From: a virus
Strand: one strand, 5' to 3'
Virus record (IMG/VR): IMGVR_UViG_3300013004_000076
Location: 1 to 40,631 of that record
Length of the DNA stretch: 40,631 bases
Shown here one piece after another: positions 2,888 through 39,670 of the stretch. The position numbers were made by a program, and so were the translations under genes. Position 1 is the first letter of the stretch; each line of letters opens with the position of its first letter. The notes under the pieces are model-generated. The model did no database searches, was not told the DNA's origin, and saw nothing but the letters and a program-made list of their open reading frames with translations.

Positions 2888-3453
2888 GATGCCACCTTTG
2901 TATTGCGCTTGCTGCGGTATGTCTTGATGGCCGAGCGGTTTTTATCCCGCTGCCGGTCGAGCAGGTGTGCGGCCTCTTCTGGCGTATAACCACGGATGGT
3001 CTCGCCTGTTTTGACGGCCTGTGTTCTGATAGCGTGCAAGATTGTGGTGTGGTCTCGGTCGCCGAAAAACCGGCCAATCTGGGGCAGGCTCCACGCATAC
3101 CGAACCTGCGCGACGGCAACGATAGCCTCGAACCGAGCGGCCACGATTTTAGCCCTCCGGCATGGTCCCATGATGTCCTGAAACGTCACGCCGTGGCGCT
3201 TGGCAATGGCCGCTACAAGCTGCTTGGTTTCGGCCATCCCGATGGGGCCTTGAGGCGTTGAAACGTACAGATATTTGGCGATAATCGTGTCAACCAAGGG
3301 CGCGGGCGGTGCTGGCTTTGCCGCAACCATGTCCGGTTTTTTGGCCGGTTCGCGCGGAATAAAAACCGGGCTGCTGGCTGCTGGTGCAAGGCCCATCCTA
3401 GCGCGACGGGCTGCATGGTCTGCGGGTGTGGGGATATACTCAATCATGGACAT
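2884..3453 (-). CDS. Stand-alone DnaA domain IV-like DNA-binding protein
   Basis: This 189-aa protein lacks any AAA+ ATPase. Residues about 75-145 match the DnaA C-terminal DNA-binding domain: a helix containing HGVTFQDIMGPCRR, then the helix-turn-helix SLPQIGRFF and the signature GDRDHTTILHA (131-141), which in DnaA contacts the DnaA box. A Pro/Ala-rich N-terminus (about 20-55) replaces domains I-III. Such proteins could occupy host or phage DnaA boxes, either recruiting replication factors or competing with host DnaA. It is second in the leftward operon, directly before the helicase. Confidence 0.85.
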   Translation of the reverse strand: MSMIEYIPTPADHAARRARMGLAPAASSPVFIPREPAKKPDMVAAKPAPPAPLVDTIIAKYLYVSTPQGPIGMAETKQLVAAIAKRHGVTFQDIMGPCRRAKIVAARFEAIVAVAQVRYAWSLPQIGRFFGDRDHTTILHAIRTQAVKTGETIRGYTPEEAAHLLDRQRDKNRSAIKTYRSKRNTKVAS

Positions 3454-3492: not shown

Positions 3493-3717
3493 TCAGTTAC
3501 CATCGCGCAGGGAGGGACACGATGGGGGAGGGGTGAATGGTTTTGCAGCGGTAAAATCGTCGGCCAGGATGACGCCGCCTGATGCTTGCAGAATTGGCAG
3601 ACGCCACCGATGTGGAACCGAGCCGCGTTGACGCCATTTCCGGCGCGCTTCGATCTTGACGCCGAGGCGCTCGGCAATTGCGTCGATGTGTGCCCACTTG
3701 GGGATTGCGTTTGTCAT
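3493..3717 (-). CDS. Small Cro/CI-type helix-turn-helix regulator
   Basis: This 74-aa protein begins with a short HTH: AIAERLGVKIEARRKWRQRG (helix 2, turn, recognition helix), then SVPHRWRLPIL, the pattern of small phage Cro-like proteins. No ribosome-binding site precedes the ATG. The TTGACG-17-TTATAA promoter just upstream would start transcription about 2 nt before the ATG, so the mRNA is effectively leaderless, as for lambda cI from PRM. It is first in the leftward replication operon and probably acts on the divergent region 3718-3843. Whether it acts as repressor or Cro is not decidable here. Confidence 0.75.
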   Translation of the reverse strand: MTNAIPKWAHIDAIAERLGVKIEARRKWRQRGSVPHRWRLPILQASGGVILADDFTAAKPFTPPPSCPSLRDGN

Positions 3718-37020: not shown

Positions 37021-38325
37021 TTAGATCACCTTCCGTGCAGTGAATTTCCAAGCCTTGGAGGCTGGCTCTTCGTCAAAGCCCATCACGCCCGTTCGCATTG
37101 CATCAGCCCCATGTGAGGCCCAATCATGCAGCGGGCGCGTCTTTAGAACTTGGTTCTTGTCATCGTATTCGGCGCGATACATGCGCAGGCAATCAATGCC
37201 GCGTTCGCACTTGGCCTTGTCAAACCACATGCGGTTAAAGCGCATCCGAATGGCGTTAATGCCATCTTCAACCGGCGCACGAGGCACCACACGGCAGACA
37301 AGCCCGCGTCCCTCAAGATACGACAGCCGGCTCTTGCCAGTCTGTAGCTCCCGCGCCTCGGCGTCATGCGGCAACAGGTTCAGGTGGACCGGATAAGGCA
37401 GCGCCTTGATCCAGTCGGCGTAGTGGTCGAGCGCTTGCCCGGTGTTTTCGTAATAGCCGATCCAGTGCCATTCCTTGCTGACAACCTGCCCGATCCAGAT
37501 GGCAGTATGGTCAGCTAGGCCCAGATCCCATGCAGCGAACACGTCAGCTGCTTTATCGTAAGGCACGCGACCGATGCGGTCCTCGTTCTCAGCTTGTGAA
37601 ATGTCCTTGGCATAGAACGCGCCACGGGTCGCCGCCTCAAAGCTGCATTCGTATTCCTGCTGATAAGCCTCAATCGTCATCGACCGTTGAGCGTCAAGAA
37701 GCTCGTCGTGGTTGATGATGTTCGTCTGGCTTGCCTTCAGCCTTGCGCTAAACCAATCGTCAGACTTCTCGGCCTGCTCATGGATGGCGTAAAACTCGTT
37801 CCTGCCCTTTGGCGTGCCGATGAATGTTGCCCAGCCCTTACGGTCAGACAATGCCGGCCTGATAACCTCAGACCACGCACGCGGGTCGATGTCGCCAGCT
37901 TCGTCGATGATAGCGCCGTCCAGATACAGACCACGCAGCCGGTCGTAATTGTCGGCACCGTAAAGCCTGATGCGTGCGCCATTGTGGGGAAACGTCACGC
38001 TCAGTTCAGTCTCCGACTTTTCAATGCCGGGGATGCTGGCCGTGTATTCCTTCAGGTAGCTCCAGGCCACGTCCTTGGCTTGGGTGTAGGTCGGCGCGAT
38101 GTATGCGAACCGAGGTTCACGGCCCTTGTGGGCAATCGCCTTGACGATCAGATCCATGATGCAGGCGACAGTCTTGCCAGCCCTTCGATGGGCAACGACA
38201 CATGACCAGCGCTTATCGCGGTTCAGATAGGGCAGGAATTGGTCACGCGCGACAAACTTGAGTTCAACCGTCGTTGTTGGCAATTGTGCCGCCGATGGTT
38301 GCGCGGATGATGATGTCGCCACCAC
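37021..38325 (-). CDS. Terminase large subunit
   Basis: The ATPase domain of this 434-aa protein has Walker A VAHRRAGKT (about 44-52, K51) and Walker B AIIDEAGD (about 138-145, D141 and E142). The C-terminal nuclease has AAWDLGLADHTAIWIG, LLPHDAEARE and DWASHGADAMRTG, providing the metal-binding aspartates. It cuts and pumps DNA into the head. The start is uncertain: GTG at 38325 overlaps the small-subunit gene by 62 bp, and a TTG at 38283 is another choice. Confidence 0.94.
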   Translation of the reverse strand: MVATSSSAQPSAAQLPTTTVELKFVARDQFLPYLNRDKRWSCVVAHRRAGKTVACIMDLIVKAIAHKGREPRFAYIAPTYTQAKDVAWSYLKEYTASIPGIEKSETELSVTFPHNGARIRLYGADNYDRLRGLYLDGAIIDEAGDIDPRAWSEVIRPALSDRKGWATFIGTPKGRNEFYAIHEQAEKSDDWFSARLKASQTNIINHDELLDAQRSMTIEAYQQEYECSFEAATRGAFYAKDISQAENEDRIGRVPYDKAADVFAAWDLGLADHTAIWIGQVVSKEWHWIGYYENTGQALDHYADWIKALPYPVHLNLLPHDAEARELQTGKSRLSYLEGRGLVCRVVPRAPVEDGINAIRMRFNRMWFDKAKCERGIDCLRMYRAEYDDKNQVLKTRPLHDWASHGADAMRTGVMGFDEEPASKAWKFTARKVI

Positions 38326-38662
38326 CCGGCCCGCTGTGCTCAGTCGTCACCTTGTCGCCATAGACCTTGGGCTTACGCTTTCCGGCTGCCCACTTGAGAG
38401 CATCAATCCGAACACGCGCAACAGCCGGGTCAATCGTCGGGTCCATCGCGGTATCAACCACGCGGTCGGCGTAGATGTCGCCTTGAGCCTCGCGCGCGTG
38501 CGCGTATTGTTCACGAAGCTCTTTGCGGCTCGGATCTGCAAGCCACTTGCACAACAGCGATGGCGAAACACTCAACTCATCTGCGACACTTCGCATCGTG
38601 CCACCAAGCGCAATCAACTCAACGAACCGTGCTTCCTTATCGTCAAACGGCTCGCCAGTCAT
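38264..38662 (-). CDS. Terminase small subunit (Sf6 gp1-like)
   Basis: This 132-aa protein has an N-terminal HTH (ALGGTMRSVADELSVSPSLLCKWLADPSRKE) that would recognise pac DNA. A helical oligomerisation region follows (DTAMDPTIDPAVARVRIDALKWAAGKRKPK, with VYGDKVTTEHSG), matching the Sf6 gp1/terminase small subunit type. It overlaps the start of the large subunit gene. Together they select and initiate packaging. Confidence 0.9.
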   Translation of the reverse strand: MTGEPFDDKEARFVELIALGGTMRSVADELSVSPSLLCKWLADPSRKELREQYAHAREAQGDIYADRVVDTAMDPTIDPAVARVRIDALKWAAGKRKPKVYGDKVTTEHSGPGGGDIIIRATIGGTIANNDG

Positions 38663-38669
38663 GTCAGCC

Positions 38670-38789
38670 TCAATAGCCCTTCTTGGCTTTCATCGCCGGC
38701 TTGGCTGCTGGCTTGCTGGCCTTTGGTTTTGCGCAGTGTCCAGCCTTCGAGCAGGCTTTGGGGTTGGGGCAACCGGGGCAGGGCTTCAT
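38670..38789 (-). CDS. Cys-rich mini-protein with Lys-rich tail
   Basis: This 39-aa ORF has AAGGA 8 nt before the ATG at 38789 and ends 7 nt before the terminase small-subunit ATG. It reads MKPCPGCPNPKACSKAGHC, then AKPKASKPAAKPAMKAKKGY. Four Cys (C4, C7, C13, C19) plus His18 suggest a small zinc site; the basic tail suggests nucleic-acid contact. Its position between the ribozyme-like region and the terminase suggests a packaging role, but this is inference. Confidence 0.7.
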   Translation of the reverse strand: MKPCPGCPNPKACSKAGHCAKPKASKPAAKPAMKAKKGY

Positions 38790-39100
38790 GGCTTGTGTCC
38801 TTAACCGTGCGGGGCTGGTTGTCGTCGAATAAATGCCAATCCTAGGAAGCCAGTTATTCCCCGGCTAGGGCTTCTCCACGCGACACCTTGCGGCGTTTCT
38901 GCCTTTCGGCTTCCTCAGGCGTTAGTGCCGGGCTAGATGCTCACAAGTTCGATTGGCTGGTGAGCCACACGCTTCGTTGCCCCATCGGGCGAATAAGCTA
39001 GCCTTTCGGCTAGAGCCTGCCGCAAGCGACAGGTGGGTAATTCGTTGGGCGCGCGAAGCGCCAGCATGGGTTTCGGAAATACAGCAAACTTCGATTGGTG
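38790..39100 (-). other. Structured non-coding stretch between GIY-YIG and terminase genes
   Basis: This 311-nt stretch has no supported start-to-stop gene. Minus-strand hairpins in order include GGCGC/GCGCC (around 39045-39065), CCTG-CG/CG-CAGG, CTAGCC-gaaa-GGCTAG, TGGCT-cacc-AGCCA within GCTCAC/GTGAGC, the hammerhead-like core, and GAAGCC/GGCTTC. It looks like a folded RNA or a DNA packaging-recognition site. The hammerhead is annotated separately. Confidence 0.6.
38860..38932 (-). ncRNA. Type I hammerhead ribozyme candidate
   Basis: Minus strand, in order: outer stem I CCCGGC, internal loop, inner stem I ACGC; CUGAGGA (C3-A9); stem II GCC-GAAA-GGC flanked by an A·A mismatch; GAA (G12-A14); stem III ACGCC-GCAA-GGUGU; C17 (at 38882); then GCGU and the distal GCCGGG. 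All core consensus bases are present, including A15.1-U16.1 and the GUC cleavage triplet. The single exception is pair 10.1/11.1, A·A instead of a usual G-C. Cleavage would fall between 38882 and 38881, about 92 nt before the Cys-rich ORF. Confidence 0.7.
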
Positions 39101-39670
39101 TCAATACCCGCGTATTTCAGTCCTGCGAGCGTTTGCCTCATATCTGGCCTCGACGGGCCACATGGCGTTAATGCGCTTTTGCACCTCTTCGATCTTGTCA
39201 GTCGGAATATCAAATGACACGTTGATGCTCAGCGCCAGTGCAGCCCATTCAATGCGCTCTTTGGCCTCATCTGGGCGCGCATCAACCCATTCACCGAGAA
39301 GCCATTTGCCGCCATCAGCAAATTCAGCGTGAAGGTATTTTTCAATGGCGAAGGCGTCTGCCCGTGTCGCTGTCCAACAGCAATGTTCCACGCGGAGACG
39401 TTTCCAGTTCGCGCCTTGAAGCGCAAGAAGGCGTTTTTTCGGGTTTGATGATATGCCGACCTTCACAGGCCATTTGCCTTCCGGTGCAATGACGTAAACA
39501 AAGCATCTGTCATCACCATCGCCAAATGTCGCAAGCCACGGGTAGCTATGCGGGAAAGGCCACTCCGCAATTTCTAACCAATCAAGGGGCCGCGCGTTCT
39601 TACTGCCCTTTCCATTCGGGCCAATCTTGTCTATGTTCCGGCGCTTGTGAGCCATTCTGCCAACCTTCAT
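39101..39670 (-). CDS. GIY-YIG nuclease, MUG113/T5orf172 type
   Basis: In this 189-aa protein residues about 57-135 match the T5orf172/MUG113 branch of GIY-YIG nucleases. VYVIAPEGKWPVKVGIS gives the tyrosine and KVGI pair, PKKRLLALQGA the conserved Arg, and AIEKYLHAEFADGGKWLLGEWVD the metal-binding Glu and His. The N-terminus is basic. Two starts are possible: 39670 (ATGA overlap) or 39655 (with AAGG 8 nt upstream). It lies directly before the structured non-coding stretch, a place where homing endonucleases often sit. Confidence 0.8.
   Translation of the reverse strand: MKVGRMAHKRRNIDKIGPNGKGSKNARPLDWLEIAEWPFPHSYPWLATFGDGDDRCFVYVIAPEGKWPVKVGISSNPKKRLLALQGANWKRLRVEHCCWTATRADAFAIEKYLHAEFADGGKWLLGEWVDARPDEAKERIEWAALALSINVSFDIPTDKIEEVQKRINAMWPVEARYEANARRTEIRGY

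Follow-up and report, generated by a model that had tools for sequence, protein, structure and literature searches.

Hammerhead ribozymes in phage intergenic regions, some of them with core variants, have been described from PaP3 and Bcep176 (Perreault et al. 2011, PMC3088659). Two other groups of ribozymes invite comparison: the HDV-like theta ribozymes of gut phages, which are small, self-cleaving, tRNA-associated and found in Caudoviricetes (PMC10879173), and the non-circularly permuted hammerheads HRIMA-1 and type SGC, which combine a hammerhead core with pseudoknots (PMC10085705). In phage T4, the tRNA cluster ends with small RNAs of another kind, rnaC and rnaD (the species 1 and 2 stable RNAs).

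The locus described here lies in a viral sequence of 40,631 nucleotides (IMG/VR record IMGVR_UViG_3300013004_000076, positions 1 to 40,631), referred to below in its entirety as the window. It is probably a true type I hammerhead that sits within a compact phage non-coding RNA with two pseudoknots; the hammerhead would cut this RNA between its two halves, and the RNA would probably act in trans. The locus resembles the type I hammerhead (Rfam RF00163 and related models) in having all core bases, three stems, H17 and an open stem I, and differs in that positions 10.1/11.1 are often A·A or U·U in the family and in being nested within another conserved RNA. The hammerheads of PaP3 and Bcep176 are likewise in phage intergenic regions, but a covariance-model search found the surrounding scaffold absent from both genomes, and the passages of Perreault et al. 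2011 (PMC3088659) that were consulted have no mention of one. Theta ribozymes are also small phage ribozymes near tRNAs, but they have the HDV fold and cut beside the tRNA 3' end, while here the fold is that of a hammerhead and the predicted cut is inside a separate RNA. In HRIMA-1 and SGC the hammerhead itself is rearranged; here the type I core is normal and the surrounding RNA is circularly permuted in some members. T4 rnaC/rnaD and the T4 tRNA region gave no match to the covariance model, and the T4 tRNA region, PaP3 and Bcep176 were ruled out as homologues on that basis. The hammerhead is thus of a known kind, and the larger conserved phage RNA around it is previously unlisted; no description of the scaffold was found in the open-licence PMC papers searched.

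The hammerhead at the window site

Read directly on the minus strand, all hammerhead core bases are present at 38922-38878. The elements follow in the order CCCGGC (38932-38927), ACUA, ACGC (38922-38919), CUGAGGA (38918-38912), A-GCC-GAAA-GGC-A (38911-38900), GAA (38899-38897), ACGCC-GCAA-GGUGU (38896-38883), C17 (38882), the predicted cut, GCGU (38881-38878), GGAGAAGCCCUA and GCCGGG (38865-38860). The sequence agrees with the original prediction, which had given these elements in this order, including an A·A at 10.1/11.1 and a cut at 38882/38881. That chance agreement is small, as had also been proposed, depends on how much of the motif is counted. A strict descriptor (core, three nested stems, A15.1-U16.1, H17 and a four-pair stem I, with 10.1/11.1 left free) has exactly one match in the window and none in 400 dinucleotide shuffles, but the bare CUGANGA...GAAA...GUC pattern has two matches in the window against 0.63 expected, which is not significant alone.

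A low-stringency blastn search against annotated phages was the seed step in collecting relatives. It matched Mycobacterium phage Gaia, Arthrobacter phages and prophages of M. abscessus; the matches to Pectobacterium, Dickeya and Enterobacter phages were shorter. The matched sequences share the hammerhead core plus a common surrounding frame. Patterns restricted to frame bases that lie outside the hammerhead were then run over 2.9 million viral contigs and gave 157 distinct members, nearly all phage. The hammerhead is readable in 116 of the 157 and its core is intact in 114-116, all recruited by scaffold bases only. Because the core was unused in recruitment, its conservation is independent evidence. 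The spacing from GGAG to GGGGAAUAACUG is fixed at 11 bases in 155 of the 157. The elements of the window hammerhead are listed below, with counts from an alignment of 44 members or from the 116 members that could be parsed.

38919..38922, minus strand: stem I, 5' strand ACGC (pair 1.1-2.1 in 116 members: CG 57, GC 51, UA 6, GU 2)
38912..38918, minus strand: core CUGAGGA, C3-A9 (U4, G5, A6 and A9 in 44/44; C3 and G8 in 43/44 each)
38900..38911, minus strand: stem II with GAAA loop and A·A at 10.1/11.1 (10.1/11.1 varies in the family)
38897..38899, minus strand: core GAA, G12 A13 A14 (44/44)
38883..38896, minus strand: stem III, ACGCC-GCAA-GGUGU (99.5% paired; 4 of 5 pairs covary)
38881..38882, minus strand: predicted cleavage site, C17 (38882) / G1.1 (38881) (position 17 never G in 116 members)
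38878..38881, minus strand: stem I, 3' strand GCGU (44-row pair counts and 116 parsed members)

Nine positions (U4, G5, A6, A9, G12, A13, A14, A15.1 and U16.1) are invariant in the 44 aligned members, and C3 and G8 are kept in 43 of these each and in 115 of the 116 parsed members. The sole parsed member without C3/G8, Mycobacterium phage Gaia, has U3/A8. C3 and G8 pair in hammerhead crystal structures, so the change in Gaia can be read as compensatory. A U3/A8 core was seen both in Gaia (NC_026590.1:77851-77995), where the stems are intact, and in a second member (L249), where stem III is weak. As expected for H17, G never occurs at position 17 of the parsed members, which have C there in 73 cases, A in 40 and U in 3. 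The 15.1-16.1 pair is A-U in 116/116, and 15.2-16.2 is C-G in 110/116. All three stems covary, both in the 44-row alignment and in the 116 parsed members; stem II ranges from 8 to 23 nt among relatives, and its recurrent loop types in the parsed members are GNRA, CUGRRAU and GUAACGCC, with no stem I contact partner identified.

A G10.1-C11.1 pair is a strong preference of hammerheads, not a defining requirement, and an A·A in its place may slow cleavage. The window copy has A·A here. Among the 116 members the combinations are GC 65, AA 25, UU 20, CA 3, GU 2 and AG 1, and by these counts the A·A of the window is a family trait (25/116). It is probably also one reason for low Rfam scores. A search with the Rfam hammerhead type I model had been proposed as a check on the prediction; scanning the window, or the candidate alone, gave no hammerhead match even at E 10. 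None of 16 member loci scanned reaches the Rfam hammerhead gathering score either, the best below-threshold score being 28.7 against 34 bits. Relatives with canonical cores were also unmatched, so the miss is probably a limit of the model, and the comparison shows that this was the wrong test for this RNA. Single-sequence thermodynamic folding of the candidate (z about 0, no better than chance) is uninformative as well, because of the pseudoknots in the actual fold. A search for sigma-70-like promoters near the RNA gave none.

The likeness could in principle be accidental, arising in a protein-coding stretch (...SPALTPEEAERQKRRKVSRGEALAGE*), as there is an open frame with natural-looking codons between about 38943 and 38857. 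This frame has no start codon and has an in-frame TGA directly upstream; indels among the relatives are not multiples of three (stem II, 8-23 nt), and the changes are compensatory pairs, not synonymous codons. The zero count of the strict descriptor in 400 shuffles also stands against it. Covariation and indels rule the coding explanation out, and its probability is close to nil. Core bases varying freely beside a conserved peptide frame had been named as a sign that the prediction was wrong, and the opposite is seen: the core is conserved and the stems covary, in 116 relatives recruited without the core, which bears out the identification as a hammerhead. The window site almost certainly has the hammerhead fold, and this copy very probably cleaves itself.

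The surrounding scaffold

The hammerhead is the central insert of an RNA of ~140 nt (38971-38835). The interval originally proposed, 38860-38932, does contain the hammerhead, but the conserved RNA is larger, and the distal GCCGGG/CCCGGC that had been counted as stem I belongs to the outer scaffold (c/c' below). Stem I of the window hammerhead is only 4 bp long. The covariance model made from the alignment (R1) spans 38827-38971 in the window. The parts of the scaffold are as follows.

38835..38971, minus strand: whole structured RNA, scaffold plus nested hammerhead (covariance search 134.2 bits, E 8e-39)
38960..38965, minus strand: helix x1, 5' strand GCUCAC, half 1, partner GUGAGC at 38944-38939 (99.6% paired; two-sided changes in 5 of 6 pairs)
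38952..38957, minus strand: strand b, GCCAAU, in loop 1, pseudoknot with b' at 38840-38835 (94.3% paired; 6 of 6 covary)
38939..38944, minus strand: helix x1, 3' strand GUGAGC (44-row pair counts)
38927..38932, minus strand: strand c, CCCGGC, tail of half 1, pairs with c' at 38865-38860 (100% paired; 3 of 6 two-sided, 3 invariant)
38869..38874, minus strand: helix x2, 5' strand GAAGCC, half 2, partner GGCUUC at 38851-38846, crossing c/c' (100% paired; 4 of 6 covary)
38860..38865, minus strand: strand c', GCCGGG, in loop 2 (44-row pair counts)
38852..38862, minus strand: near-invariant GGGGAAUAACU (invariant alignment columns)
38846..38851, minus strand: helix x2, 3' strand GGCUUC (44-row pair counts)
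38835..38840, minus strand: strand b', AUUGGC, 3' end of the RNA (pair counts and swapped-partner control)

There are two pseudoknots in the scaffold: b crosses x1, and x2 crosses c. In the 44-row alignment, 95.9% of the pairs in the full pseudoknotted model are standard pairs, compared to 70.1% when shuffled and at most 43.7% when slid. Two-sided changes occur in 27 of the 37 pairs, and the covariation score is 0.648 versus 0.162, a value reached in 0 of 500 shuffles. The b/b' pairing scores 19.4, versus 10.6 with swapped partners; in hammerhead-free members the mean is 19.8 versus 10.7.

The two halves are alike, each running CGUGG, hairpin strand, loop, hairpin strand, AUCUG or CUAGG, and tail. 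The scaffold resembles a single-chain, domain-swapped dimer, in which each loop would pair with the tail of the other half; this symmetry is interpreted from the sequences, not derived statistically. Three unpaired stretches of the scaffold are highly conserved (GGGGAAUAACU, AUCU and CUAGG), though the invariance of GGGGAAUAACU is partly due to recruitment, as it is part of a recruiting pattern. A tentative long-range pair between the halves, CGUGGG/AAUAACUG, is CGUUGG/AAUAAAUG in five members (L222, L231, L232, L235, L239).

Scanned against Rfam 15, the scaffold had no match at the window site, nor at six member loci at E 1 (L118, L170, L171, L187, L213, L244). With no Rfam match where it was scanned for, and no annotation as RNA in the records inspected, the scaffold is evidently missed by annotation pipelines.

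Hammerhead-free and permuted forms

About a quarter of the members have no hammerhead. In 24 of these, helices x1, c and x2 (18 pairs) are 100% paired, with a covariation score of 0.472 versus 0.151. Many are compact, about 90 nt long, with only 3-5 nt at J1, the junction that follows half 1 and leads into half 2, where the hammerhead would otherwise be placed. Another 15 distinct members are circularly permuted, with the order hammerhead, half 2, hairpin, half 1. All helices are kept in the permuted members: x1 and x2 have 6/6 pairs, and b has 6-9 bp. One member (L281) is both permuted and without a hammerhead.

In a tree built from the scaffold only, members with and without the hammerhead are intermixed, with 26 changes, at least eight of them forced by supported branches. 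A single clade of hammerhead-free members is rejected (p 0.0008). This tree has 97 columns and is weakly resolved, and repeated switching between presence and absence is suggestive, not firm. The scaffold is likely to represent an undescribed class of phage RNA with the architecture of a domain-swapped dimer and two crossing pseudoknots, occurring in two permutations, in which the hammerhead was repeatedly gained and lost; the phages concerned would be those of Proteobacteria, Actinobacteria, Clostridia and Cyanobacteria.

The benefit of the hammerhead is not obvious, since about a quarter of the members do without it. It could be a neutral or selfish insert that is tolerated at J1, the scaffold alone being functional and cleavage without purpose. 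The existence of the scaffold without the hammerhead, a J1 that may be as short as 3-5 nt, and the repeated switches on the tree (26 changes, p 0.0008) are all compatible with this, as is one member (L174) that resembles a decayed copy. A neutral insert would decay, however, and every core base is kept in 114 of the 157 members, with covarying stems; the hammerhead also holds its place in the permuted RNAs, and the tree in favour of neutrality is the weakly resolved one of 97 columns. Such an insert is considered unlikely. A ribozyme appears to be held by selection at one fixed junction, and RNAs of closely related structure lack it. With and without the ribozyme, and in permuted order, this one RNA amounts to a natural experiment on what a small ribozyme is for. 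The junction inserts at L174:9467-9610 and L165:460-595 resemble decayed hammerheads or other inserts.

Genomic context and proposed function

In the window, the RNA stands ahead of the terminase genes. The location given in the original prediction, between a GIY-YIG gene and the terminase genes, agrees with the database matches of the two flanking genes:

39101..39670, minus strand: T5orf172/GIY-YIG-like gene, upstream of and outside the RNA (PF10544, E 2.2e-8)
38264..38662, minus strand: terminase small subunit gene, downstream of and outside the RNA (phrog_1482, E 2.7e-26)

A role linked to the terminase, which had been suggested from this position, did not hold up. Several other members are near terminase, portal or head genes, as would suit an element dedicated to the terminase transcript, for processing late mRNA or as a packaging RNA. 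Others are in tRNA arrays, lysis regions and non-structural regions, beside scaffold, tail or capsid genes, or in an antitermination-holin gap, and the RNA is absent at the terminase genes of three sister phages with related terminase small subunits (L004-L006). A phage packaging RNA would be expected to have a constant association with packaging genes, and here the neighbours vary. A terminase-specific element is therefore very improbable. In one of the sister phages (L004), tRNA-like fragments are found where the window has the RNA. Taken with the absence of the RNA beside related terminases, this suggests a swap site at the position, with the RNA as an accessory cassette.

Members are found in tRNA arrays and late-gene regions of phages from several host phyla. 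A tRNA is within 1 kb of 27 of 102 members, compared to 2.5-5% of random positions, and it is always on the same strand. By form, the count is 12 of the 27 members scored as hammerhead-free and 15 of the 75 with a hammerhead, a few contig-end and degenerate copies being scored as hammerhead-free. In one contig (L171) the RNA fills the slot between a tRNA ending at 3425 and a tRNA starting at 3525. Other members are near terminase, portal, scaffold, tail, capsid, head or lysis genes, and their neighbours include no conserved gene that would suggest a function. There was one copy per genome in six of seven records checked. The seventh, a 4.2-kb contig, has two: tandem copies on the minus strand (L201:2558-2697 and 2730-2876), each with a hammerhead and 32 nt apart, so that cutting at both hammerheads would release a permuted unit. 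Two member contigs also encode a tmRNA (L118:3523-3882 in 266 kb and L185:10261-10608 in 142 kb).

Among 84,980 bacterial and archaeal species (one genome each), an exact pattern gave five true cases. Four of the five neighbourhoods were examined: two have clear phage genes (terminase, DNA polymerase), one has repressor-like genes, and one has a phage SbcC-like gene (L210 and L212, L211, and L213, respectively). The permuted form is present in 15 of 5,426 E. coli genomes, and in the inspected case it lies between the antitermination gene and the holin of a lambdoid prophage. This unannotated permuted hammerhead RNA was recorded at NZ_CM129886.1:1490951-1491151 and in 14 other E. coli chromosomes. 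Only the seed genome has the RNA among 385 alphaproteobacterial genomes surveyed, and a scan of a plasmid collection gave nothing convincing.

Another function to consider is that of a natural aptazyme or switch, in which the scaffold would respond to a ligand, protein or ion by gating the hammerhead and so control a late transcript in cis. The highly conserved unpaired bases of the scaffold (GGGGAAUAACU, AUCU, CUAGG) would fit a sensor, as would a hammerhead inside a separate conserved domain and the position of some members early in late regions. Against this, the downstream genes vary between phages, about a quarter of the members have no hammerhead to gate, and many of these hammerhead-free members are packed in tRNA arrays with no close downstream coding gene. 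A switch of this kind is doubtful, slightly more so than a neutral insert.

The location in tRNA arrays, the single orientation, the mostly single copy and the strong structure suggest a stable RNA acting in trans, a role that is favoured here with some reserve. In the proposed mechanism, the RNA would be transcribed from the minus strand together with the late genes. The hammerhead at J1 would cut itself at 38882/38881, so that half 1 would end in a 2',3'-cyclic phosphate and half 2 would begin with a 5'-OH. Held together by b/b' and c/c', the halves would form a two-piece RNA with a nick. In a permuted member, cleavage there would remove a leader, and the 5' end of half 2 would be the end of the molecule. 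Since permuted RNAs would be cut at the same point, half 2 would have the same free 5'-OH end in both topologies. As a stable phage RNA, the mature molecule would most likely act in trans, late in infection. Some members occur in E. coli prophages and in phages cultured on Mycobacterium smegmatis, Arthrobacter and Pectobacterium, which makes the role of cleavage testable in laboratory strains.

Several other features are present around the RNA in the window. A hairpin, UUCGCCC-N4-GGGCAACGA, precedes it at 38974-38993 (minus strand) and is also found in six further phages (L103, L110, L126, L133, L138, L007); the RNA-less sister phage L004 has this hairpin too, followed by fragments resembling a tRNA T-arm. 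Just upstream of the RNA, at 38985-39050 (minus strand), are two stable hairpins closed by CGAAU/AUUCG (z -1.9), largely common to L004. On the other side, the region 38671-38790 (minus strand) contains an unlisted 39-aa Cys/Lys-rich ORF (MKPCPGCPNPKACSKAGHC...) with no Pfam match, which is conserved beside the terminase small subunit in L004-L006.
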